From Proteiniphilum sp. (GTDB taxonomy: Bacteria; Bacteroidota; Bacteroidia; Bacteroidales; Dysgonomonadaceae): DNA of 58,142 bases. Numbering within the stretch: the first letter of the stretch is position 1; every line of letters starts with the position of its first letter. The notes below the pieces were generated by a model that ran no database searches, was not told the origin of the DNA, and saw only the letters and a list, made by a program, of their open reading frames with translations. A program made the translations under genes and the position numbers. The stretch spans positions 1 through 58,142 of the forward strand of contig JAQVWR010000008.1 of the NCBI GenBank assembly GCA_028709605.1, read 5' to 3'. Shown here piece after piece: positions 5,348 through 19,245 of this stretch.

Positions 5348-8300
5348 TCAATACTCGTTCCAGCTTTTGATCTCGATATCCTTCAGATCCATCTTGCAGA
5401 ACGCGGTGATAAATGCACTGGCCAGTCGTGCGTTGGTGATCAACGGGATGTTGTGGTCCACCGCGCCGCGGCGGATGATATAGCCGTTGGTCAGCTCCCT
5501 GCGTGTCACATCCTTCGGGATGTTGATGATCAGGTCGAACTGCTTCTCGGCGATCATCTGTTGGATGTTGTTCTCCCCGTCCTCATCGGGCCAGTTCACG
5601 TCGGTGGCGGCGATGCCGTTCTCTTCGAGGAACTTTTGTGTACCGTGGCTGGCATAAAGGGTATATCTTTTCTCCCCCAGCAGCTTGCATGCTTCCAGCA
5701 GGTCCACCTTCGATTTTGTCTCACCCGAGGAGATCAGGATCCCTTTTTGCGGAATCTTATACCCCACGGAGAGCATCGATTTGAGGATGGCATCGTGAAA
5801 ATCCTCCCCGATGCAACCCACCTCACCGGTGGAAGACATATCCACACCCAGTACCGGATCGGTGTTCTGCAAGCGGGAGAAAGAAAACTGCGACGCCTTC
5901 ACGCCGATATAGTCCAAGTCGAATGCTGAACTGTGCGGTTTATGGAAGGGTGCATTGAGCATGATACGGGTGGCCGTCTCAATAAAGTTCTGCTTCAGCA
6001 CCTTCGAGACAAACGGAAAGGAGCGTGAGGCGCGCAGGTTGCATTCGATCACCTTGATCTCGTTGTTCTTAGCCAGGTACTGTATGTTGAACGGTCCACT
6101 GATGTTCAGCTCCCGCGCAATCTGCCGGGAGATCTTCTTCACGCGGCGCATGGTCTCGAAATAGAGCTTCTGCGCAGGAAAGACCAGCGTGGCATCACCC
6201 GAATGAACCCCTGCAAATTCCACATGCTCGGAGATGGCATACTCCACCACCTCCCCCTCACGGGCTACTGCGTCGAACTCAATCTCCTTGGCGTTCTGCA
6301 GAAAGGAGGAGACCACCACCGGGTACTCCCTGGAGACATTGACCGCCATCTGCAGGAAGGTATGCATCTGCTCCCTGTCGTAACAGACGTTCATGGCAGC
6401 ACCGGAGAGTACATAGGATGGACGGATCAGCACCGGGAAGCCCACTTCATCCACAAAAGAGTCGATCTCATCGAAGCTGGTCAGCTCCTTCCAGCGTGGC
6501 TGGTCGATCTTCAGCTCGTCGAGCATGGCGGAGAACTTGTGCCGGTTTTCCGCACGATCGATCGATAGCGGGGAGGTCCCCAGAATGGGTACCTGCTGAC
6601 GGTGCAACTTCATCGCCAGGTTATTGGGGATCTGTCCTCCCATGGAGACGATCAGCCTTTTGGGCGATTCGATGTCGATCACATCCAGCACCCTTTCGAA
6701 GGTCAGCTCATCAAAGTAGAGCCGATCGCACATGTCGTAGTCGGTTGACACCGTTTCGGGGTTGTAGTTGATCATCACCGACTGGTACCCCAAATCGCGT
6801 GCAGTTTGTACCGCGTTCACCGAGCACCAGTCAAACTCCACGGAGGAACCGATGCGGTAAGCGCCCGAACCCAACACGATCACGGTCTCCTTCTCTTCCT
6901 GGTGTGGCTTGTAGGCACTGGCCGATCCATAGGTGAAGTAGAGGTAGTTGGTCTTATCCGGATGCTCCGAAGCCACGGTATTGATGCGGCGTACCACCGG
7001 CAGCACCTGCAGGCGCTTGCGATGGTTACGCACCCGGATCTGTTCGTTCTCCACGGTTCCCTGCGGCTCCTCCACAAAACGGGCGATCTGGAAGTCGGAG
7101 AAGCCGAGCCGCTTGGCTTCTTGTAACACTTCTGCAGGAAGTTCTTCTATCTTGTTGTAGGAGGAGAGCACCTTCGAGTAGTTGTGGATATTCTCCAGCT
7201 TCTCCAGGAACCAGCGGTCGATCTTGGTCAACTCCTCAATCTGTGTTACCGTATAGCCTTTCTCAAAGGCATCGGCGATGGCGAAGATGCGCAGGTCGGT
7301 TGGTCGCGAAAGCGACTCCTCCACATTGTCGAAGGTCATCTCCCGGTTTCCCACGAAGCCGTGCATCCCCTGCCCGATCATGCGCAGCCCCTTCTGGATG
7401 ATCTCCTCGAACGACTGGCCGATAGACATGATCTCCCCCACCGACTTCATGCTGGAGCCGATCTCATGGCTCACCCCATAAAACTTGTTCAGGTCCCATC
7501 GGGGGATCTTCACGATCAGATAATCCACCTTCGGTGCCACGTAGGCTGAGTTGGCGGTACCCTGCTCCCCGATCTGGTCGAGGGAGTAGCCCAGCGCCAG
7601 CTTGGTGGCCACGAACGCCAGCGGATAGCCTGATGCCTTAGACGCCAGTGCCGAGGAGCGGCTCAGGCGGGCATTGATCTCGATGATGCGGTAGTCGTTG
7701 GTCTCCGCGTTGAACGCATACTGTATATTGCACTCTCCCACGATACCGATATGTCGTACCGTACGGCGCGCAATATCTTCCAGCAGTTCAATCTGTTCTT
7801 TTGCCAGTGTGATGATCGGTGCCACCACGATGCTCTCGCCGGTATGGATGCCCAGTGGGTCGAAGTTCTCCATCGGCACCACCGTGAAGCAGTGATCATT
7901 CTTGTCGCGGATCACCTCAAACTCGATCTCCTTCCACCCTTTCAGGCTCTCTTCCACCAGAATCTGACTGGAGAAGGAGAGAGCGCTTTTGCAGAGTTCC
8001 ACAAACTCCTCCTCGTTGTTGCAGATGCCTGATCCCTGTCCCCCCAGGGCGTAGGCAGAGCGAACCATAATGGGAAAACCAATCTCATGAGCTGCTTTCA
8101 GGGCATCCTCCAGGCTCTCCACCGCATGCGATACCGGTGTTTTCACTGCAATCTCATCCAACTTCTTCACGAAGAGATCCCGGTCTTCCGTGATCATAAT
8201 CGCTTCCACGGTGGTGCCCAGCACCCTCACCCCGTGTTTTTCCAATATGCCGCTCCGGTAGAGCTCCGTGCCGCAGTTGAGAGCCGTCTGGCCGCCAAAG

Positions 8301-8560
8301 GCGAGCAGGATGCCGTCGGGTTTTTCTTTTTGAATTACCTTCTCCACAAAATAAGGAGTGATCGGCAGAAAATAGACAGTGTCGGCTACCCCTTCGGAGG
8401 TCTGTATGGTAGCGATGTTGGGGTTGATCAACACCGTCTTAATACCTTCCTCGCGCATCGCCTTGAGAGCTTGCGAGCCAGAGTAGTCAAACTCACCGGC
8501 TTGTCCGATCTTCAGGGCGCCGGAACCCAGTAAAACAACTTTCTTGATTGATTGGTCCAT
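5348..8560 (-). CDS. carB: carbamoyl-phosphate synthase large chain, second copy
   Basis: 1070 residues, full length. Two ATP-grasp halves and a C-terminal MGS-like allosteric domain are present. The first half has LGSGALKIGQAGEFDYSG, FGGQTALNCGTEL, HTGESIVVAP and the metal-binding EINARLSRSSALASKASG. The second has RIGSSVEFDWCSVN, NYNPETVSTDYD, EHVEFAGVHSGDAT and ECNLRASRSFPFVSK. The MGS domain runs from GILISSGETKSKVD to the end. It should make carbamoyl phosphate from bicarbonate, ammonia channelled from CarA and two ATP, for pyrimidines and/or arginine. Third gene of carA-carB-carB, 95 bp after the other copy. Its start codon is flanked by CAAT repeats. Whether both copies pair with the single CarA is unknown. 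Confidence 0.95.
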   Translation of the reverse strand: MDQSIKKVVLLGSGALKIGQAGEFDYSGSQALKAMREEGIKTVLINPNIATIQTSEGVADTVYFLPITPYFVEKVIQKEKPDGILLAFGGQTALNCGTELYRSGILEKHGVRVLGTTVEAIMITEDRDLFVKKLDEIAVKTPVSHAVESLEDALKAAHEIGFPIMVRSAYALGGQGSGICNNEEEFVELCKSALSFSSQILVEESLKGWKEIEFEVIRDKNDHCFTVVPMENFDPLGIHTGESIVVAPIITLAKEQIELLEDIARRTVRHIGIVGECNIQYAFNAETNDYRIIEINARLSRSSALASKASGYPLAFVATKLALGYSLDQIGEQGTANSAYVAPKVDYLIVKIPRWDLNKFYGVSHEIGSSMKSVGEIMSIGQSFEEIIQKGLRMIGQGMHGFVGNREMTFDNVEESLSRPTDLRIFAIADAFEKGYTVTQIEELTKIDRWFLEKLENIHNYSKVLSSYNKIEELPAEVLQEAKRLGFSDFQIARFVEEPQGTVENEQIRVRNHRKRLQVLPVVRRINTVASEHPDKTNYLYFTYGSASAYKPHQEEKETVIVLGSGAYRIGSSVEFDWCSVNAVQTARDLGYQSVMINYNPETVSTDYDMCDRLYFDELTFERVLDVIDIESPKRLIVSMGGQIPNNLAMKLHRQQVPILGTSPLSIDRAENRHKFSAMLDELKIDQPRWKELTSFDEIDSFVDEVGFPVLIRPSYVLSGAAMNVCYDREQMHTFLQMAVNVSREYPVVVSSFLQNAKEIEFDAVAREGEVVEYAISEHVEFAGVHSGDATLVFPAQKLYFETMRRVKKISRQIARELNISGPFNIQYLAKNNEIKVIECNLRASRSFPFVSKVLKQNFIETATRIMLNAPFHKPHSSAFDLDYIGVKASQFSFSRLQNTDPVLGVDMSSTGEVGCIGEDFHDAILKSMLSVGYKIPQKGILISSGETKSKVDLLEACKLLGEKRYTLYASHGTQKFLEENGIAATDVNWPDEDGENNIQQMIAEKQFDLIINIPKDVTRRELTNGYIIRRGAVDHNIPLITNARLASAFITAFCKMDLKDIEIKSWNEY

Positions 8561-8655: not shown

Positions 8656-11600
8656 TTATTGATACTCCCCCCAGTGCCTGATTGCGATATCCTCCTCCGA
8701 GGTCCGACAGAACGCTTTGATAAAGGCGCTGGCCAGTCGCGCATTGGTAATGAGCGGAATATTGTAGTCGATGGCGCCGCGACGGATCTTGTAGCCGTTG
8801 GTCAACTCTCTTTCCGTCAAGTTCTTGGGAATATTGATCACCAGGTCGAACCGCTTTTCCGCGATCAGGTCGTTCACCTTCAGCGCCGCTGTTTCATCAT
8901 CCGGCCAGGCCACCAGGGTGCTTTTCACACCGTTCTCCGCCAGGAATCTTTGTGTGCCCTCGGTAGCAAACAACCGATAGCCGTTTTGTTGTAGCAGGCG
9001 ACAGGCGTCCAGCAGGTCCACCTTCGACTTGGTGCCCCCGGAAGAAACCATGATGTTCTTTTTGGGGATGCGGTAGCCCACCGCCAGCATGGAGGTGAGC
9101 AAAGCATCGTCGAAATGGGTACCGATGGTCCCCACCTCACCGGTCGATGCCATATCCACCCCAAGCACCGGATCGGCTTTCTGCAGGCGGGTAAACGAGA
9201 ACTGGGAGGCTTTGATCCCCACATAGTCGAGGTCGAAAGCCGATTTCTCCGGCTTGCGGACCGGGATATCAAGCATTACTTTCGTAGCGAGCTCTATAAA
9301 GTTTATTTTCAATACTTTTGATACAAAAGGAAATGATCTGGATGCCCTCAGATTACATTCGATTACCTTGATAGCATTCTCTTTCGCCAGGAACTGAATG
9401 TTAAAAGGCCCCGAGATATTCAGTGCCTCCGCGATCTCGCGGGTGATCTGTTTGATCCGCCTGACGGTCTGCACGTAAATCTTCTGCGGCGGGAACTGGA
9501 TGGTAGCATCGCCCGAATGGACACCGGCAAACTCCACATGCTCAGAAATCGCATAGGCAACCAGTTCTCCGTTTCGGGCAACCGCATCCATTTCGATCTC
9601 CTTGGCATTCTCCACAAACTCGGAGACCACTACCGGGTACCGATCCGACACTTCGGTGGCAAGTGTTAGAAAGCGCACTAACTCATCCCTGTTGGAGCAG
9701 ACGTTCATAGCCGCACCGGAGAGCACATAAGAGGGCCTTACCAGCAGAGGGAAGCCCACCTCATCCACGAACCGGTAAATTGCATCGAGGGTAGTGAGCT
9801 CCTGCCAGCGGGGTTGGTCGATATGGAGCCGGTCGAGCATGGAGGAAAACTTATGGCGGTCTTCGGCGTTATCGATGCTTGTGGCCGAGGTACCCAGGAT
9901 GTTCACCCCTGCGTTGTCCAGCTTCACTGCCAGGTTATTGGGGATCTGTCCCCCAACCGAGACGATGACGCCGTGGGGGTTCTCCAGTTCAACGATATCC
10001 ATCACCCGCTCAAACGACAGCTCGTCGAAATAGAGCCGGTCGCATACATCATAGTCGGTCGATACTGTTTCCGGATTATAGTTGATCATCACCGATCGGT
10101 ATCCCTCCTTACGAACGGTAGTCAACGCATTCACCGAGCACCAGTCGAATTCAACGGACGAACCGATACGGTAGGCACCCGACCCCAGGACAATTACCGA
10201 CCGGTGATCGCCCAGGTACTGCACATCGTTCTCCGACCCGTTGTAAGTGAGGTAGAGGTAGTTGGTCTGCGCGGGATACTCGGCTGCCAACGTGTCGATC
10301 TGTTTGACTACCGGCAGCAGTCCCAATTTCTTCCGGTAAGAACGTATGATGAGTGGCGATGCGTCGGTGATCTGCTCTTTCCAGATGGCCCTGGCCACCT
10401 GAAAGTCGGAGAAACCCTGTTGCTTGGCGAGCAACAGCTCCTCATCGAAACTGTTGTTGTGTGCTGCACCAAAGTCGACTGTTTCAGGGGAATATTCCTC
10501 CAGCGTTTCCGCTGTAAGCACAATGTGGTACAGTTTCCAAAGAAACCATTTATCAATTTTCGTCAGCTCATGGATCTGATCGACCGTGTATCCTTTTCGA
10601 AACGCCTTGCTGATCACGAAGATGCGCTGATCGGTCGGCTCACGGAGTGCTTTGTCGATGTCATCGATCTGCAGCTCCTTGTTCTCCACGAAGCCGTGCA
10701 TCCCCACGCCGATCATCCGGAGCCCTTTCTGGATGGCCTCCTCAAAGGTGCGGCCAATGGACATGATCTCACCAACCGACTTCATGCTGGAGCCGATCTC
10801 TTTCGATACACCGTTGAACTTACTCAGATCCCAGCGGGGGATCTTCACCACGATATAGTCGAGTGCCGGCTCAAAGAAGGCGCTGGTAGAGCGGGTGACG
10901 GAGTTTTTCAGGTCGAACAGCCCGTAACCCAGGGCCAGCTTTGCCGCCACGAAAGCCAGCGGGTAGCCGGTCGCCTTGGATGCCAGTGCCGAAGAGCGGC
11001 TCAGGCGGGCATTCACCTCGATCACGCGGTAGTCTTCCGACTCAGGGTCAAGGGCGTACTGCACGTTGCACTCTCCCACCACTCCGATATGCCGGATAAT
11101 TTTGATGGACAGCTCCCTCAGTTTATGATACTCCCTGTTGGTGAGTGTTTGCGAGGGAGCCACCACGATGCTTTCGCCGGTATGGATGCCCAACGGGTCG
11201 AAGTTCTCCATGTTGCAGACGGTGATGCAGTTGTCGTATCGGTCGCGCACCACCTCATATTCGATCTCCTTCCACCCTTTGAGCGACTTCTCAATCAGCA
11301 GTTGACGGGAGTAGTTGAACGCTTTACCGGCCAGCGCTTTCAGCTCCTCTTCCTTGTTGCAGAAGCCGGAACCCAGTCCGCCGAGAGCATAGGCAGCCCG
11401 TACAATAACAGGATAGCCGAGCGTGGCGGCGGCCTGCAGCGCATCTGCCATGGTGGTGACGGCAAAGCTTTTGATGGTCTTCACACCGATCTGGTCGAGC
11501 TTCCTGACAAACAGCTCACGGTCTTCCGTATCCATGATCGCCTGCACCGGTGTACCCAATACCGCGACCTTGTATTTTTCAAATATCCCTGTTTTGTAAA

Positions 11601-11949
11601 GTACTACGCCACAGTTCAGCGCGGTCTGGCCGCCGAAAGCCAGCAGGATGCCGTCGGGCCGTTCACGGGCAATCACCTTTTCCACAAAAAAAGGAGTGAC
11701 CGGCAGGAAGTAGATCCGGTCGGCCGATCCTTCGGAGGTTTGTACCGTGGCGATGTTGGGATTGATCAGGATGGTCTCCGCTCCCTCTTCGCGCAGCGCC
11801 TTCAGTGCCTGCGATCCGGAGTAGTCAAACTCACCCGCCTCGCCGATCTTGAGGGCACCCGAACCGAGAACCAGTACTTTCTTTTTTGGGGGGAGCTTTG
11901 TGCCACTCCCCGAGATACGATCTTGTTGCATCGAACTTTCGCAATTCAT
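8656..11949 (-). CDS. carB: carbamoyl-phosphate synthase large chain, first copy
   Basis: 1097 residues, full length, 18 bp downstream of carA. All CPSase modules are visible: ATP-grasp 1 (FGGQTALNCGVVL, GWKEIEYEVVRD, HTGESIVVAPSQTL, EVNARLSRSSALASKATG), the oligomerisation linker, ATP-grasp 2 (RIGSSVEFDWCSVN, NYNPETVSTDYD, EFAGVHSGDAT, ECNLRASRSFPFVSK) and a C-terminal MGS domain (IMVSSGGTKSKVD to the end). The N-terminus carries about 25 extra residues before KVLVLGSGALKIGEAG; a Met at residue 7 is an alternative start. From memory, its first half is very close to the human CAD enzyme, closer than copy two. It is probably the main partner of CarA. Confidence 0.95.
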   Translation of the reverse strand: MNCESSMQQDRISGSGTKLPPKKKVLVLGSGALKIGEAGEFDYSGSQALKALREEGAETILINPNIATVQTSEGSADRIYFLPVTPFFVEKVIARERPDGILLAFGGQTALNCGVVLYKTGIFEKYKVAVLGTPVQAIMDTEDRELFVRKLDQIGVKTIKSFAVTTMADALQAAATLGYPVIVRAAYALGGLGSGFCNKEEELKALAGKAFNYSRQLLIEKSLKGWKEIEYEVVRDRYDNCITVCNMENFDPLGIHTGESIVVAPSQTLTNREYHKLRELSIKIIRHIGVVGECNVQYALDPESEDYRVIEVNARLSRSSALASKATGYPLAFVAAKLALGYGLFDLKNSVTRSTSAFFEPALDYIVVKIPRWDLSKFNGVSKEIGSSMKSVGEIMSIGRTFEEAIQKGLRMIGVGMHGFVENKELQIDDIDKALREPTDQRIFVISKAFRKGYTVDQIHELTKIDKWFLWKLYHIVLTAETLEEYSPETVDFGAAHNNSFDEELLLAKQQGFSDFQVARAIWKEQITDASPLIIRSYRKKLGLLPVVKQIDTLAAEYPAQTNYLYLTYNGSENDVQYLGDHRSVIVLGSGAYRIGSSVEFDWCSVNALTTVRKEGYRSVMINYNPETVSTDYDVCDRLYFDELSFERVMDIVELENPHGVIVSVGGQIPNNLAVKLDNAGVNILGTSATSIDNAEDRHKFSSMLDRLHIDQPRWQELTTLDAIYRFVDEVGFPLLVRPSYVLSGAAMNVCSNRDELVRFLTLATEVSDRYPVVVSEFVENAKEIEMDAVARNGELVAYAISEHVEFAGVHSGDATIQFPPQKIYVQTVRRIKQITREIAEALNISGPFNIQFLAKENAIKVIECNLRASRSFPFVSKVLKINFIELATKVMLDIPVRKPEKSAFDLDYVGIKASQFSFTRLQKADPVLGVDMASTGEVGTIGTHFDDALLTSMLAVGYRIPKKNIMVSSGGTKSKVDLLDACRLLQQNGYRLFATEGTQRFLAENGVKSTLVAWPDDETAALKVNDLIAEKRFDLVINIPKNLTERELTNGYKIRRGAIDYNIPLITNARLASAFIKAFCRTSEEDIAIRHWGEYQ

Positions 11950-11967: not shown

Positions 11968-13038
11968 TTACAGCATTTTCACAAAATCCTCGAAGAAAAA
12001 ACGGGTATCCGTCGGCCCTCCCGTCGCTTCGGGATGGAACTGCACCGAGAAGAACGGTTTGGTTTTGTGGCGGATCCCCTCGTTGGTGCCGTCGTTCATG
12101 TTTACAAAGTAAGGCTCCCACTCTGCTCCCAGCCGCGACTCATCCACGGCATACCCGTGGTTCTGCGCGGTGATGAAGCAGGTATGGGTTCCCACTTTCC
12201 GCACCGGCTGGTTGTGGCTGCGGTGACCGTATTTCAGCTTATAAGTGTCGGCTCCCGCTGCTTTGGCCAGCAGCTGGTTACCCATGCAGATGCCGAACAC
12301 CGGCCTGTCCTGCTGCAGAGCATTGCGGATATGCTCTACGGTGATCCCGCAATGATCGGGATTACCGGGGCCGTTGGAGATCACCAGACCGTCGTAGTCG
12401 ATCGTGCTGAAATCGTAGTCCCAGGGTACGCGGATCAACCGGAGCTGTTGTGTGAGCAACTCCCGCACAATGTGCAGCTTCACCCCGCAATCGATCAGCA
12501 CCACCGTTTTTTTCCCCTCTCCATATTCGATCACCTCTTTGCAGCTTACTTTTGCCACCAGGTTCTCCTTTTCCGGATCATCATCACCCGCCTCATCCTC
12601 CCGGTCAAAGACAATCTTTCCCAACATGGACCCTTTTTCCCGGAGTACCTTCGTCAGCATACGGGTATCGATTCCGCTGATGCCGGGTACATCCTCCTCC
12701 CGGAGCCAGTCGCCCAGGCTTCTCTTTCCGTTCCAGTGGGAATAGTCGTCGCAGTAATCCTGCACGATCAGTCCGCGGACATGGATCCTGTCGGACTCAA
12801 AAAAATCGGAAATTCCGTTTGTTTCGCTCTGGGCGGGTACTCCGTAATTTCCGATAAGGGGATATGTGAATATTAAAATCTGTCCTTCGTAGGAAGGGTC
12901 TGTCAGGCTCTCGGGATAACCGACCATTGCTGTGCTGAAAACGACCTCTCCCGATGTTCCTTTGGGGGCTCCAAACGATTGTCCGTGAAAAACCGTCCCG
13001 TTTTCAAGGATCAATCGCACCGGCTTAAAAATGTGCAT
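11968..13038 (-). CDS. carA: carbamoyl-phosphate synthase small (glutaminase) chain
   Basis: 356 residues. The N-terminal CPSase small-chain domain shows GEVVFSTAMVGYPESLTDPSYEGQ and SGIDTRMLTKVLREKGSM. The C-terminal class-I glutamine amidotransferase has its nucleophile elbow FGICMGNQ (Cys251) and the VQFHPEA His/Glu pair, so it looks catalytically intact. It splits glutamine and passes ammonia to CarB. First gene of carA-carB-carB with a promoter about 50-80 bp upstream. Only this one small chain is visible for the two large chains. Phrases such as SNGPGNPDHCG and GHRSHNQPVRKVG resemble the eukaryotic CAD glutaminase. Confidence 0.95.
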   Translation of the reverse strand: MHIFKPVRLILENGTVFHGQSFGAPKGTSGEVVFSTAMVGYPESLTDPSYEGQILIFTYPLIGNYGVPAQSETNGISDFFESDRIHVRGLIVQDYCDDYSHWNGKRSLGDWLREEDVPGISGIDTRMLTKVLREKGSMLGKIVFDREDEAGDDDPEKENLVAKVSCKEVIEYGEGKKTVVLIDCGVKLHIVRELLTQQLRLIRVPWDYDFSTIDYDGLVISNGPGNPDHCGITVEHIRNALQQDRPVFGICMGNQLLAKAAGADTYKLKYGHRSHNQPVRKVGTHTCFITAQNHGYAVDESRLGAEWEPYFVNMNDGTNEGIRHKTKPFFSVQFHPEATGGPTDTRFFFEDFVKML

Positions 13039-13391: not shown

Positions 13392-15623
13392 ATGAACAAG
13401 ATCGCAATAATCGGGAATTATCCTCCCCGTAGATGTGGCATTGCCACATTTACAAAAGACTTAAATGAAGGATTGAAGGCTAAAGGCGTATCCACCGGCG
13501 TGGTAGCCATGAACGACGGTTTAAACCGCTACAATTATTCTGAAGATGTGGTGTTTGAGATTGAGCAGAATGTGATGGCATCCTACATCAACGCCGCTGA
13601 ATATCTGAACTCGAATAATTTTGATGCAGTGATTGTGCAGCATGAGTTCGGAATTTATGGCGGCTTGAACGGCATACACATTCTCCAACTGCTGAAACGT
13701 TTACGGATCCCTGTAATTACCACGCTACACACCGTGATCGATAATCCCACCGACAATCAGAGGAAGGTGATCAGTGAGCTTGCACGCGTCTCCCAAAAGC
13801 TGGTATGTATCTCCCAAAAAGGCATTGAATTGCTGCGGACCGTGTACGGGATTCCCGCCTCCGGTTGTGTACACATTCACCATGGGGTTCATCATTACAA
13901 AACCAAAAACGTTTCCCATCTCAGGCAAAAGCTGGGAGTAGAAAACAAAAAGGTGTTGCTTACCTTTGGCCTTCTCTCCAGAAACAAATCTATCGAGGTG
14001 GTTATCAAAGCGTTGCCAAAAGTCGTGGAGAAATACCCGAATACTGTCTATATTGTGCTGGGCGCTACTCATCCCCATGTCGTGAAGCATGAGGGGGAAG
14101 ATTATCGGCTCATGCTCATCAGACTCGTAAACAAGTTAAAACTGGAAAAGCATGTGATCTTTATCAATCGGTTTGTCACCAATGAGGAGCTCTTCAGTTA
14201 CCTGGAACTGTGCGATATCTATGTGATTCCTTATCTGGGTGAAAAACAGATCTCCTCGGGGACACTGATCTACACCATGGGAGCTGCTAAACCCATCATC
14301 TCTACCCCCTTCTGGTACGCCAAAGAGATGCTTGCCGAGGAGAGGGGGCTGTTGTTTGACTTTAACAACTCAGATCAGCTGACAGCGCACATCAACGATC
14401 TGCTGGAGAATGAAGACAAAAGGCAAACGATTGCCCGGAATGCATTCAACCTGGCCAAAGAGTGTTATTGGCCCATGATTGGCAAACAGTATTATGAGCT
14501 TACGGACCAGATCATTGCGGAAGACAAAATCAGAGCCATCACTGAGCCATCGCAGGTGATGGAATCAAAGTTTGTCCTTCCGCCCATCAAACTGGATCAC
14601 CTCCGTGTCTTAACAGACTACACCGGTATTCTGCAACATGCCCGGTATAATGTGCCCGACCGAAACCACGGGTATTGTACGGATGATAACGCCAGGGCAC
14701 TGCTCCTGTCGGTAATGCTGCAGAATGAGGTGCAGGATGTGGATGAAGTGACCCGGCTCACCGGCACCTATCTTTCATTCATCGATTACGCTTACAATCC
14801 TGCCATTTCGAAATTTAGAAATTTGATGAATTATGAAAGAAAATGGCTTGATGACCAAGGATCGGAAGACACTACGGGGAGAGTGGCGTGGGCACTTGGA
14901 TACACAACGGCCTATACCGATGTATGCAATTTCCATCATCACGCCAACTACCTGTTCGGGAAGGTGTGGAAATCGGTCGGAACGCTGACTCATCCCCGGG
15001 CGCTGTCATACGCTGCATTGGGATTGGCTTATCACGCAAAAGCGCATGGGGAAGAAGCAGTGATTGAAAGGCTGAAGCATTGTGTAAAGAAGCTGTGCGA
15101 CCTGTTTGATCAACCTATCGGATCGGAATGGCGCTGGTTTGAAGAAAAGGTGAGCTATGCCAACAACCGCATCCCCCACGCATTGATCCATGCCGGGATG
15201 TTGTTGAATGATGAATCGGTGATTCAACGCGGATTGAAGGTGCTGGACTGGCTCATTGAAAAACAATTCCATGATGGCATCTTCTCCCCCATAGGCAACC
15301 ACGGGTGGCTTACCCCGCATGGCAAGGCAGCGTTCGATCAGCAACCCCTCGAGGCCAACGGCATGATCGATGCTTGTCTTCAGGCAGAGGAGTTTGTAAA
15401 GGACGGCACCTATGCCGATTATGCACTGAAAGCATTTTACTGGTTCACGGGAGAAAATGATCGTGGTGAGTCTCTGTATGATTTTGCAACAGGCGGCTGT
15501 CGCGACGGACTGCAGGCAAATGGTGTGAATCTCAACCAGGGGGCAGAGTCCACCATCTCATGGCTGATGTCTCTGATGAGCATCTCGTTTTTTCTGCGCA
15601 ACAAGAATGATTTACTGGTATGA
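13392..15623 (+). CDS. GT4 glycosyltransferase fused to a C-terminal helical (alpha/alpha barrel-like) domain
   Basis: 743 residues from the ATG at 13392; an open frame reaches back to 13227, but the conserved GT4 start MNKIAIIGNYPPRRCGIATF begins here. Residues 1 to about 400 form a GT-B retaining glycosyltransferase: PPRRCGIATFTKDL at the acceptor side, TFGLLSRNKSIEVVIKAL opening the nucleotide-sugar domain, SSGTLIYTMGAAKPIIST near 290. From about 420 a different, helix-rich domain follows with DRNHGYCTDDNARALLL, DTTGRVAWALGY, SYANNRIPHALIHAGM and a Trp/His-rich repeat pattern, resembling six-hairpin glycosidases or epimerases. Convergent with a GH130 gene, and near a second GT4. Probably builds or remodels a cytoplasmic glycan; donor and acceptor are unknown. 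Confidence 0.85.
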   Translation: MNKIAIIGNYPPRRCGIATFTKDLNEGLKAKGVSTGVVAMNDGLNRYNYSEDVVFEIEQNVMASYINAAEYLNSNNFDAVIVQHEFGIYGGLNGIHILQLLKRLRIPVITTLHTVIDNPTDNQRKVISELARVSQKLVCISQKGIELLRTVYGIPASGCVHIHHGVHHYKTKNVSHLRQKLGVENKKVLLTFGLLSRNKSIEVVIKALPKVVEKYPNTVYIVLGATHPHVVKHEGEDYRLMLIRLVNKLKLEKHVIFINRFVTNEELFSYLELCDIYVIPYLGEKQISSGTLIYTMGAAKPIISTPFWYAKEMLAEERGLLFDFNNSDQLTAHINDLLENEDKRQTIARNAFNLAKECYWPMIGKQYYELTDQIIAEDKIRAITEPSQVMESKFVLPPIKLDHLRVLTDYTGILQHARYNVPDRNHGYCTDDNARALLLSVMLQNEVQDVDEVTRLTGTYLSFIDYAYNPAISKFRNLMNYERKWLDDQGSEDTTGRVAWALGYTTAYTDVCNFHHHANYLFGKVWKSVGTLTHPRALSYAALGLAYHAKAHGEEAVIERLKHCVKKLCDLFDQPIGSEWRWFEEKVSYANNRIPHALIHAGMLLNDESVIQRGLKVLDWLIEKQFHDGIFSPIGNHGWLTPHGKAAFDQQPLEANGMIDACLQAEEFVKDGTYADYALKAFYWFTGENDRGESLYDFATGGCRDGLQANGVNLNQGAESTISWLMSLMSISFFLRNKNDLLV

Positions 15624-15760
15624 CGCAAAAGCATCGTCTTCCCATCCATATTCTCCCTTCTTCGAGAAGTGTACACTGTTCCGGCCCTTAACTGGCCTCA
15701 TCACGCATCTGACCGTTCTGCAAAACCACGAGCCGGCATCCTGGCTGTCGGAAGCATGCA

Positions 15761-17227
15761 TCAGGAGTTGAGAATCTTCCCAATCAGTTCCCTGATATCG
15801 ATGGACATAAACCCGGCGCCCGTATCTGACAATCCATATGGAACAATCAGGTGATTGTTGTGCAGGATGGATCCGCAGGAGTAGACTACGTTGGGGACAT
15901 AACCCTCCCTCTCCTCCTCGTTGGGTGCGAGCAACGGTTCCTTCAGGCGGCCGATCTCTTTTGTCGGATCATACAGGTCGAGCAAGGCAGCACCCAGGCA
16001 ATACTGCCTCATCGGCCCTACTCCGTGCGTGATCACCAGCCATCCCTCAGGCGTCTCAATCGGGGCACCGCAGTTTCCCGTCTGGATAAACTCCCACGGA
16101 TACTTTGGCTCCTGTATTTTGACAGGTTGCTGCCAGATATTGATGTTGTCGGAGAAGCCGATATAGCTGTTGATACCATCGATGCGCGATAACATGGCAT
16201 ACTGGCCACGTATCTTCCTCGGAAACAGGGCAAGATTCTTGTTTTGTGCCCCTCTTCCGTGAAGCGGTTTCACCTCAAAAGAGTAAAAATTTTCCGTAAC
16301 AATCATCTTCGGGAGAACCGTATATCCGTCGTAAGCGGTATAGGTAGCATAGTAGATAACCTTTCCGTCATCATCGGTAAAACGTACGAAACGTGCATCC
16401 TCAATGCCTCTTCGTTCCGTATAAGATATGGGGAAAATAACCCTTTCGGAAATATGGGTATCCCGTGAAAACTCTATGCGATAGTGCGAATCGGCCACCC
16501 AGACAATATGATCAACATCTCTGCGTTCCTCCTCGCTCAACGAAGGGCGTGCCAGCACTTCCAGAGCTGAGCCCAGCAGCTCGCCATAAATGAACGTCTC
16601 TTTCAGAGGCTGCATCACCGCGTGGACAATTTCTCCCTCCACACCCATCTCTCGCAGCTTGGTTTCAATCAAAGCCTTGTCGTAGGTATGTCTTTTCACT
16701 ACTTCCGGCTCATCCACATAATGTCCTGTCTGCTCAAAACTGAGTGCTCCGTTTCGATCAATCACGCCGGTGTGAAACACGATACTGGAAATATGTCCCT
16801 CGCCTGTAGCGCGGAAACTGATAATCACACGCTTCGAGCCCTCTTCAAGCCCCGTCTGGTCAGGCGATTCGACAATAGAAGGATTAAAAAATGCTGCAGA
16901 ACTGATCGCATACTCCATCGAGAAATAGGATCCGATCAGCAGTTTTTTATCCTCGCTGATCTCATCCAGTTCGGGGAGCGTTTCTCCAACAATCTTCAGA
17001 GCCTCCCGGTAATGATGTTTGAATTTTCGTGTGAGGTTTCGATGCCGCTTGGAAAACTCACGCAGGGTCTGCATCAATGTCTGACGTGCAATCACCTCAT
17101 CCATCTCAATCACCTTTAACATCAAATCACGGGTCCGTTGTGCCCCAAGATCGTGGAAACGAATGATCACCCTCTTAAAATCAGGATAAAACCTGTTTGG
17201 CAACCTGTTTACAGTTATTCTCATCAT
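15761..17227 (-). CDS. glycoside hydrolase family 130 (mannoside phosphorylase/hydrolase-like), long form
   Basis: 488 residues, longer than the 300-400 usual for GH130 mannoside phosphorylases. The first 90 or so residues are a charged helical extension. The five-bladed propeller part begins with FFNPSIVESPDQ and SFRATGEGHISSI. The acid/base motif RRGIEDARF near residue 287 keeps the Asp of the family, followed by YYATYTAYDG and HGVGPMRQYCLGAALLDL. Family members cleave or phosphorolyse beta-mannosides. No signal peptide, so cytoplasmic. It faces the GT4 fusion tail to tail and the second GT4 head to head (249 bp shared upstream region). Phosphorylase versus hydrolase cannot be settled by eye. 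Confidence 0.88.
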   Translation of the reverse strand: MMRITVNRLPNRFYPDFKRVIIRFHDLGAQRTRDLMLKVIEMDEVIARQTLMQTLREFSKRHRNLTRKFKHHYREALKIVGETLPELDEISEDKKLLIGSYFSMEYAISSAAFFNPSIVESPDQTGLEEGSKRVIISFRATGEGHISSIVFHTGVIDRNGALSFEQTGHYVDEPEVVKRHTYDKALIETKLREMGVEGEIVHAVMQPLKETFIYGELLGSALEVLARPSLSEEERRDVDHIVWVADSHYRIEFSRDTHISERVIFPISYTERRGIEDARFVRFTDDDGKVIYYATYTAYDGYTVLPKMIVTENFYSFEVKPLHGRGAQNKNLALFPRKIRGQYAMLSRIDGINSYIGFSDNINIWQQPVKIQEPKYPWEFIQTGNCGAPIETPEGWLVITHGVGPMRQYCLGAALLDLYDPTKEIGRLKEPLLAPNEEEREGYVPNVVYSCGSILHNNHLIVPYGLSDTGAGFMSIDIRELIGKILNS

Positions 17228-17263
17228 AAAAAAACAATTTTAAAAATTGCAGTGCATCAGGAA

Positions 17264-17271
17264 CAAAGGTA
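17264..17271 (-). promoter_or_regulatory. -7 element of the GH130 gene
   Basis: TACCTTTG on the minus strand fits TAnnTTTG and lies 37 bp upstream of the start at 17227. No clear -33 TTTG was found at the right distance. Confidence 0.45.
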
Positions 17272-17397
17272 ATTTTTTCTAAGTTCATCTCCTCGAATTA
17301 TCCCTTAAAAATGGTTTTTCTGTTTTGCATTCTATCTCTTTTCCCGGGCTTATGCAAACATTCCCATCGATCCGGAGAGAAACTGAGAAAAAAAATG

Positions 17398-17405
17398 TAA
17401 TTTTG
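17398..17405 (+). promoter_or_regulatory. -7 element of the second GT4 gene
   Basis: TAATTTTG fits the Bacteroidota -7 consensus, 72 bp upstream of the chosen start at 17477. The -33 box is not recognisable. The position argues for the ATG at 17477 over the earlier in-frame ATG at 17423. Confidence 0.45.
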
Positions 17406-17476
17406 TCAGCATCCTTCCACCTTTGCCACTATCAGCGGATATGGGTGCCGGAAGAGATGAAAAAACAAATCATCGT

Positions 17477-18490
17477 ATGAAAATCGCAATGCTTTCTCCC
17501 ATCGCCTGGCGTACCCCTCCGGTGCACTACGGTCCCTGGGAGCTGGTCACCTCCCTGCTGACGGAGGAGCTGGTCCGCAACGGGATCGATGTCACCCTTT
17601 TTGCCACGGGCAACTCCATGACCCATGCCAGGTTGCAATCGGTATGTCCCAGAGGCTATGAGGAGGACCGGGAAATGGATGCCAAGGTATGGGAATGTCT
17701 CCATATCTCCCACTGCTTCGACCATGCAGGTGAGTATGACATCATTCACAACCAGTTCGATTTCCTGCCACTGACCTATTCCGGATTAACAAACACACCG
17801 GTAGTTACCACGATACACGGATTCTCATCGTCCCGTATCCTGCCCGTGTACAAAAAGTATAACCGCCACACTCACTATGTCTCGATCAGCGATGCCGACC
17901 GCTCCCCCGAACTGGATTATATTGCCACCATCCACCATGGCATCGACACAACTCATTTCACCTTCAATCCCAATCCGGCAGGCGATTACATGCTTTACTA
18001 CGGACGCATACACCGGGACAAAGGAACAAAGGAAGCGGTGGAGATCGCCCGGGCGCTGGATATACGCCTGGTCATCGCCGGAATCATTCAGGATGAGGTG
18101 TATTTCAACACTTGTGTCAAACCTTTCCTGAAAGAGGGAAAGATTGAGTATATCGGCAGTGTGGGCGACGACAGACGCGATGCATTGTTGGGCAATGCCC
18201 GGCTGCTGGTGCATCCCATTAGCTTCAGTGAACCATTCGGCCTCTCTATTGTTGAGGCGATGGCGTGCGGCACCCCGGTAGTAGCTTTTAACAAGGGAAG
18301 TATGCCGGAGCTGATCAGGGATGGCGAAACCGGTTTTCTGGCAGAGAACAAGGAAGAGGCGATGGAGAAAATCAAACGAATAGACAGCATCAACCGCCAC
18401 TCCTGCAGAACAGATGTGGAGCAACACTTCAGCAAAGAGATCATGGCGAGGCGTTATATCGAAGTATACAGAAAGATCTTAAAAATGTAA
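17477..18490 (+). CDS. GT4 family glycosyltransferase
   Basis: 337 residues from the ATG at 17477, chosen because MKIAMLSPIAWRTPPVHYGPWE is the conserved N-terminus; the frame extends 18 codons further upstream without conserved sequence. It is a two-domain GT-B enzyme. The N-terminal half has a loop with YGPWE and IHNQFDFLPL; the C-terminal half has YYGRIHRDKGTKEAVEIAR and the retaining-GT4 motif SEPFGLSIVEAMACGTPVVA near residues 245-265 with its donor-binding Glu residues. No membrane segment. It is divergent from GH130 and probably works in the same glycan pathway as the GT4 fusion. Sugar donor unknown. Confidence 0.9.
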   Translation: MKIAMLSPIAWRTPPVHYGPWELVTSLLTEELVRNGIDVTLFATGNSMTHARLQSVCPRGYEEDREMDAKVWECLHISHCFDHAGEYDIIHNQFDFLPLTYSGLTNTPVVTTIHGFSSSRILPVYKKYNRHTHYVSISDADRSPELDYIATIHHGIDTTHFTFNPNPAGDYMLYYGRIHRDKGTKEAVEIARALDIRLVIAGIIQDEVYFNTCVKPFLKEGKIEYIGSVGDDRRDALLGNARLLVHPISFSEPFGLSIVEAMACGTPVVAFNKGSMPELIRDGETGFLAENKEEAMEKIKRIDSINRHSCRTDVEQHFSKEIMARRYIEVYRKILKM

Positions 18491-18543: not shown

Positions 18544-19245
18544 ATGCAAAACAGAATTATTGAAGCGGCGATTCTTGCCGCAGGACTGGCATTGATAGGC
18601 ATTATGATTCATGCCGGTATCAGCAATTTCAAGGACAGAGACCGCGTAGTGAGTGTGAAGGGGCTGGCAGAGATGGAGGTGCCGGCAGATAAGGTGGTAT
18701 GGCCGTTGATGTATAAGGACCTGGGGAACGACCTGGTGACCCTCTACAACAACATACAGACAAAAAACAGCACCATCGTGGCTTTTCTAAAGGCTAACGG
18801 CATCTCCCGGGAAGAGATCAGCGTGGCTCCGCCGGAGATTATCGACATGGAGGCGGAGCGGTACAACACACAGAGTCATCCCTATCGTTACAATGCCACC
18901 TCCGTGATCACGGTCACCTCGACCAACGTGGAGAAGGTGCGCCGCCTGATCTCGGAGCAGACCGAGCTGTTAAAACAGGGTGTAGCCATCACGGCAGGTG
19001 ACTATCGGTACAACATCGTTTATGAGTTCACCGGCTTGAATCAGATCAAGCCACAAATGATCGAGGAGGCGACGAAGAATGCGCGGCTGTCGGCGGAGAA
19101 ATTTGCGTTGGATTCCGGGAGCAAACTGGGGAAGATCCGGGATGCCTCACAGGGACAGTTCTCTATTACCGACAGGGATGCCAACACCCCCTATATCAAA
19201 AACATCCGGGTAGTAACCACCATCAACTACTACCTGAAAAACTAA
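18544..19245 (+). CDS. SIMPL domain-containing protein (DUF541)
   Basis: 233 residues. A single N-terminal hydrophobic segment (AAILAAGLALIGIMIHAGI, residues 8-26) anchors or exports the protein, leaving the SIMPL domain outside the cytoplasm. The domain starts at VVSVKGLAEMEVPADKVVWPL and contains ITVTSTNVEKVRRLISEQ and the terminal IRVVTTINYYL. The molecular function of the family is poorly known; in some bacteria it is linked to stress or oxidative protection. It stands alone between the GT4 gene and the convergent galactose regulator, with its own -7 element. Confidence 0.85.
   Translation: MQNRIIEAAILAAGLALIGIMIHAGISNFKDRDRVVSVKGLAEMEVPADKVVWPLMYKDLGNDLVTLYNNIQTKNSTIVAFLKANGISREEISVAPPEIIDMEAERYNTQSHPYRYNATSVITVTSTNVEKVRRLISEQTELLKQGVAITAGDYRYNIVYEFTGLNQIKPQMIEEATKNARLSAEKFALDSGSKLGKIRDASQGQFSITDRDANTPYIKNIRVVTTINYYLKN

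Follow-up and report, generated by a model that had tools for sequence, protein, structure and literature searches.

A recurrent, partly plasmid-borne module of a GT4-helical fusion, a long GH130 and a second GT4, with mannose as its probable sugar

In the Thermoanaerobacter cluster Teth514_1786-1789, GH130 enzymes have been proposed to feed mannose-1-phosphate (Man-1-P) to GDP-mannose for an envelope glycan, the assays described in the sections of PMC4264767 used here being on the GH130s only. In BT3780, a GH130 hydrolase, N74, R89, K199, E227 and E268 are placed around D142, with the glutamate pair E227/E268 as the hydrolase base, and a lysine is linked to beta-1,2 specificity in GH130 (sections of PMC4599007 used here). 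The locus described here occupies positions 13,392 to 18,490 of a 58,142-nucleotide stretch of Proteiniphilum sp. DNA (JAQVWR010000008.1, a single contig of a 2.3 Mb genome with 88% completeness; hereafter the window) and encodes a GT4-helical fusion, a long GH130 and a second GT4 (GT4b), each identified by the open reading frame (ORF) list and Pfam where the first-pass annotation had placed it. No signal peptide was seen on the three proteins, as judged by eye with no predictor run. The Thermoanaerobacter cluster is similar in that a pair of GH130s adjoins manC and a GT4, in that its GH130s have no signal peptide and in the idea that Man-1-P is returned to GDP-mannose; it differs in that its GH130s have ~300 residues, it includes an ATP-binding cassette (ABC) importer and a GH5, and no GT4 fusion is named in those sections (PMC4264767). 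Like the first-pass annotation, which knew of no experimentally described system of this composition, we recognised no description of this gene set among the papers listed by literature searches, and this cluster is the closest. The features of the locus are:

13392..15623, + strand: GT4-helical-domain fusion, 743 residues (ORF, Pfam, model, recurrence in other loci)
13392..14540, + strand: GT4 half of the fusion, residues 1-383 (Pfam and model, GT-B fold)
14595..15620, + strand: helical C-terminal domain of the fusion, residues 402-743 (helices in model, match to 7tem)
15761..17227, - strand: long GH130, 488 residues (PF04041, Foldseek, tree)
16928..17227, - strand: N-terminal helical region of the GH130, ~residues 1-100 (model)
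16490..16678, - strand: helical insertion of the GH130, ~residues 184-246 (model; missing from aligned short GH130s)
16397..16399, - strand: D277, predicted catalytic-acid Asp of the GH130 (invariant in 31 of 31; aligns with the invariant Asp of other GH130s)
17477..18490, + strand: GT4b, probably 337 residues (Pfam; start set from relatives)

The three genes form a genuine module that is widespread and in part carried on plasmids. A survey of genome samples from the order (149 genomes) and from the phylum Bacteroidota (296 genomes) revealed that they co-occur beyond chance in both, as expected if, as had been suggested, they work as a set. The long GH130 is present in 30 of the order genomes, of which 23 have a full-length match to the C-terminal half of the fusion (C-half; Fisher P 1.6e-14) and 26 have any C-half match (1.9e-17), values that ignore relatedness and rest on genome lists copied by hand from match tables. 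GT4b (E <= 1e-60) is found in 12 of the 149, all with a C-half and 11 with the long GH130. In the phylum sample, 33 of the 40 genomes with a long GH130 have a full-length C-half, and six of the other seven have a weak, mostly short-frame relative; 22 genomes have a C-half and no long GH130, with another GH130 within 6 kb in at least 14 of these among the matches listed.

Gene content was typed at 113 loci overall, the 80 best (named loci) of at least 589 relatives obtained by a GTDB scan with the long GH130 and 33 order-set loci, with the window counted among the latter; contig ends hide neighbouring genes at several loci from metagenome-assembled genomes. The named loci include the fusion in 42 cases, GT4b in 33 and a short GH130 in four, with GH130, fusion and GT4 all within one fetched stretch in 27, and where both GH130 and fusion are present they are convergent in 38 of 41. 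At 38 of the 80 the fusion is not in the fetched stretch, many of these being from Flavobacterium. With copies at 42 named and 20 order-set loci, the fusion cannot be put down to faulty assembly, a concern raised in the first-pass annotation. The proposed trio does recur but is not the whole cluster, to which a short GH130 belongs as fourth gene; all four are present at nine of the 33 order-set loci, GH130, fusion and GT4 being together at ten, and the short GH130 of the cluster is missing from the window. In a variant arrangement, judged by coordinates, the fusion adjoins a different GH130 of ~350 residues. The distribution is patchy; the two sampled genomes of the same family (G019, G133) have neither the long GH130 nor the C-half, and among the best 80 of the at least 589 relatives the long GH130 is seen in one Flavobacterium johnsoniae strain and in Pedobacter and Chitinophaga species. 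At locus L033 (10528-12738) a DUF5916/CBM9 protein of ~720-740 residues adjoins GT4b at the usual fusion site, and there is a similar gene at L075 (Pfam was run for the L033 protein only).

The C-half is also encoded on 28 plasmid records, near-copies included, from sphingomonads, rhizobia, Ilyobacter and Deinococcus, 16 of which are typed conjugative. A GH130 is located within ~1.2 kb of it in 24, at 3-6 kb in two and at ~19 kb in two. Neighbourhoods were opened for 20 of the records, of which three lack usable annotation, and were judged by coordinates for the remaining eight. GT4, short GH130, long GH130 and fusion are encoded in a single run on the Ilyobacter polytropus plasmid, and fusion, GT4 and GH130 are present on a Deinococcus plasmid. 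In 11 of the 20 opened neighbourhoods the run that includes the fusion also has manC or a manA-like gene (manC upstream of the fusion in seven, a manA-like gene alone in four). This genetic link to GDP-mannose genes, in phyla other than Bacteroidota, supports the earlier suggestion of mannose, which is probably the sugar of the module. An AGE-family epimerase is encoded downstream in two. On Sphingobium yanoikuyae pSES220 and S. xenophagum p1, the order is manC, manA-like gene, fusion, GH130 and phosphomannomutase, with the manA-like gene overlapping the fusion by 4 bases. Both ManC proteins tested score above the model cut-off; the phosphomannomutase is identified by the depositors' naming and Pfam domains. 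On plasmid pRSMS1 of Sphingobium sp. RSMS, copper-related genes flank a lone relative of the long GH130 (L167, 8061-9284).

The long GH130 matches PF04041 at residues 258-482 (105.2 bits; curated cut-off 26) and its model has a mean predicted local distance difference test (pLDDT) score of 91.9, with the extra length ordered. That length, previously described as one charged helical extension, is indeed helical but is in two ordered parts, ~100 residues before the propeller and the insertion at ~184-246. Foldseek matches the model to GH130 structures (blades were not counted), with the beta-1,2-oligomannan phosphorylase Teth514_1788 as the best match. In a tree of 42 rows, 20 of them long GH130s, these form their own clade (branch support 100/100) that spans Bacteroidota, Alphaproteobacteria and Ilyobacter, the long-branch warnings being elsewhere in the tree. 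N115, R139, E276, D277, R279, K330, R348, G384, N385 and D468 do not vary among the 31 long GH130s compared, N115, R139 and D277 corresponding to the Asn, Arg and Asp of the GH130 active site, and H401 is His in 30; the pattern is the same in the six non-Bacteroidota proteins checked and in a second copy on the Sphingobium cloacae plasmid pSCLO_2. A C-terminal receiver-like domain is fused to the long GH130 at nine of the 113 typed loci (L035, L036, L038, L039, L076, L079, L086, L091 and L143), identified as Response_reg by Pfam in all three tested.

The published spacing of the BT3780 residues around D142 recurs in two hydrolases of this type encoded in the order genomes, both scoring above the NF058598 cut-off. 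Their glutamate pair is missing from the long GH130, which has G384 and the R348 region instead and is not a BT3780-type mannosidase by NF058598 (25 bits against 550). Taking the phosphate site to be the three alignment columns that are basic in phosphorylases but not in the two hydrolases, two such residues appear to be retained in the separate clade (R348 and H401) and the third is Q382. The expectation of phosphorolysis thus gains from the loss of the hydrolase glutamates but, because Q382 replaces the third basic residue, phosphorolysis is likely rather than assured. K330 may be the beta-1,2 determinant, given the lysine of PMC4599007 and a Lys in both Teth514 enzymes; the alignment does not put K330 cleanly on the Lys of the hydrolases, and short GH130s carry Arg in this column, as do mannosylglucose-phosphorylase-like proteins.

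Residues 16-352 of the fusion are identified as GT4 (PF00534, 73.5 bits against a cut-off of 26.4), and in the AlphaFold model (pLDDT 85.9) the first half resembles a GT-B fold, residues 383-393 are a weak linker and the second half is made of helices; Pfam and model together confirm the first description of the 743-residue protein as a GT4 half joined to a separate helical half. For the GT4 half, the closest solved folds found by Foldseek are HepE, MshA and PimB', and the class assignment has both a passed Pfam cut-off and a GT-B fold, the fold having been checked for the fusion only. The second half matched no Pfam family, but residues 583-731 match 7tem by sequence (profile E 8e-18) and, by Foldseek, in fold; the modelled helices can be read as an (alpha/alpha)6 barrel. 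Free-standing relatives of ~425 residues adjoin GH130s in three Bacteroidota loci (L058, L061 and L064), two that were translated having lipoprotein-like N-termini; a MalK-type ABC protein is confirmed near the one in L058, and in Sphingomonas plasmid locus L247 a weak relative accompanies annotated ABC importer genes and a GH130. The helical domain is a putative glycoside hydrolase by its conserved acids and fold, and it is called a glycosidase, probably of the same glycan, mainly because this free-standing context ties domain and GH130 to one glycan.

Our preferred reading, which we regard as having about an even chance of being correct, is a cytoplasmic make-and-break cycle for a mannose glycan, fed by GDP-mannose, in which the GH130 would act as phosphorylase or synthase. 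We infer the donor, linkages, direction, helical-domain activity and cellular site as follows. GDP-mannose made by ManA, ManB and ManC would be used by one or both GT4 enzymes to place mannose on an acceptor, probably in alpha linkage because GT4 enzymes are retaining. Acting on beta-linked mannose, with beta-1,2 as the likeliest linkage, the long GH130 would add or remove units against Man-1-P that ManC would return to GDP-mannose, and the helical domain would trim the glycan, so that a single fusion polypeptide would both build and trim. A ManC-type domain is encoded elsewhere in the window's genome. Storage and osmoprotection, named in the first-pass annotation, may be roles of the product.

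Several observations weigh against this cycle. GT4 enzymes are retaining and GH130 enzymes inverting, and the bond formed by the one would not be the bond cleaved by the other. In the GT4 half of the fusion, the second Glu of the EX7E motif of GT4 enzymes is replaced by Leu in 19 of 20 sequences (L292 in the window) and by Phe in one. Position 382 is Gln in 30 of the 31 long GH130s and Lys or Arg in four known GH130 phosphorylases/synthases, and the long GH130 scores 147.5 bits with the beta-1,2-mannobiose phosphorylase model NF052550, far under its cut-off of 450. ManA-like proteins score under their model cut-off, no mannose gene was seen in seven of the 20 opened plasmid neighbourhoods (in the unannotated one by tblastn), and in Bacteroidota mannose genes seldom lie nearby (at 3 of 132 loci).

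Some of the same evidence fits salvage alone, in which the GH130 and helical domain would degrade imported or recycled beta-mannosides to Man-1-P, with the GT4s spending the GDP-mannose derived from it on an unrelated envelope glycan. The precedent is Thermoanaerobacter, with two GH130s, manC and a GT4 (sections of PMC4264767 used here), and the free-standing helical-domain relatives do accompany GH130s and ABC importers. But in those opened plasmid stretches that are annotated, no importer goes with the fusion, and in the fusion the trimming domain is joined to a transferase; we consider salvage alone to be unlikely.

GT4b, at 17423-18490 (+) in its longest form, passes the class cut-off (PF00534, 99 bits) and is where it had been reported, but the alignment of relatives favours a start at ATG 17477, and 337 residues are likelier than 355. 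It has a canonical EX7E (EPFGLSIVEA), a motif present in five of six GT4b proteins tested, the window's included. The GT4s might instead make a lipid- or protein-linked mannose glycan of the envelope or of proteins, edited by the GH130; GT4s are common in such pathways, the best match of GT4b is Agl16 (weak, 83 bits where the cut-off is 575) and the DUF5916/CBM9 protein adjoins GT4b in L033 and L075. Among the neighbour families counted, most of them unannotated, there is, however, no recurrent flippase, polymerase or export gene, and envelope or protein glycosylation seems to us distinctly improbable.

The plasmid neighbourhoods also raise the possibility of a stress-tolerance module, its product being a protectant under heat, salt or drying. 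The island of S. cloacae pSCLO_2 holds the module with GroEL, ClpB, DnaK, DnaJ, GrpE, two Hsp20, Dps and YfdX, six further sphingomonad records have DnaK/GrpE or GroEL neighbours, and Hsp20 is encoded at six of the 80 named Bacteroidota loci and at none of 40 control stretches (P 0.08). Against this, the stress-gene set is not enriched near Bacteroidota copies (24 of 80, P 0.10; 2 of 32; 5 of 20; controls 7 of 40), and an association in Bacteroidota was rejected as not significant relative to the 40 controls. An EcfG-type promoter was also not found at the alphaproteobacterial operons; with a consensus matched to examples in PMC6599016 (sections used here), 14 loci gave two motif matches, neither at the module, against 6.75 in shuffles, and such a promoter was rejected. 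A stress protectant is, in our estimate, quite unlikely. The S. melonis EcfG targets in those sections of PMC6599016 include #1750 'Glycosyltransferase' and #1751 'Glycosidases'. No claim is made that these are the pair described here, because the latter label also fits alpha-amylases. The island itself (L169) covers ~45 kb, 205000-250000 of the conjugative plasmid, with two GH130s and GroEL/ES among its genes.

Closely 3' of GT4b, at 18544-19245 (+), the window encodes a SIMPL/DUF541 protein (Pfam) that is seemingly outside the module, because the other 112 loci, as drawn, show no labelled copy. Two full-length carB-like genes, at 5348-8560 (-) and 8656-11949 (-), are in tandem and 66% identical over 1075 columns, with a carA-like gene beside them at 11968-13038, the carbamoyl-phosphate synthase names being given by eye. 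Elsewhere the genome encodes a GT35-type phosphorylase, and the module was rejected as its only storage route. C33, the genome's other GH130, was rejected as the missing short GH130 (38% identity over 192 residues to the cluster type); its identity to GH130s in loci of three other genomes is 73-75% over 288 residues, and two of these loci encode, on our own reading, SusC/SusD-like proteins.

Yersinia YPO2471 (PDB 7tem) is like the C-half of the fusion in sequence and fold but is free-standing and named exported, whereas the helical half here is fused to a GT4. BT3780-type beta-1,2-mannosidases share with the long GH130 the family, the catalytic Asp and the beta-1,2-linked lysine (sections of PMC4599007 used here), and differ in that the long GH130 lacks both catalytic-base glutamates and has R348 and H401. 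The Leishmania mannogen GT108 enzymes are alike in their five-bladed propeller, beta-1,2-mannan and synthesis plus phosphorolysis in one cycle (sections of PMC8950772 used here). They have no GT4 fusion, and GH130s are far closer to the long GH130 by fold; the long GH130 has a weak Foldseek match to the Leishmania protein 2b4w (E 5.5e-6), and there was no sequence match to Leishmania GT108 among PDB hits at E <= 1. The module could conceivably be the bacterial equivalent of the mannogen system, transmissible and both forming and drawing on an intracellular beta-1,2-mannan reserve, although we consider this doubtful; the GH130 would then build and shorten the chain, with an altered phosphate site and sometimes under control of the fused receiver domain, and the fusion would make and trim the primer. 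If the make-and-break cycle is correct, a mannose-glycan counterpart of the glycogen economy would be widespread in Bacteroidota and present on plasmids of Alphaproteobacteria, Fusobacteriota and Deinococcota, with three oddities of its own: a transferase-helical fusion, a GH130 clade with a seemingly altered phosphate site and a GH130-receiver fusion.

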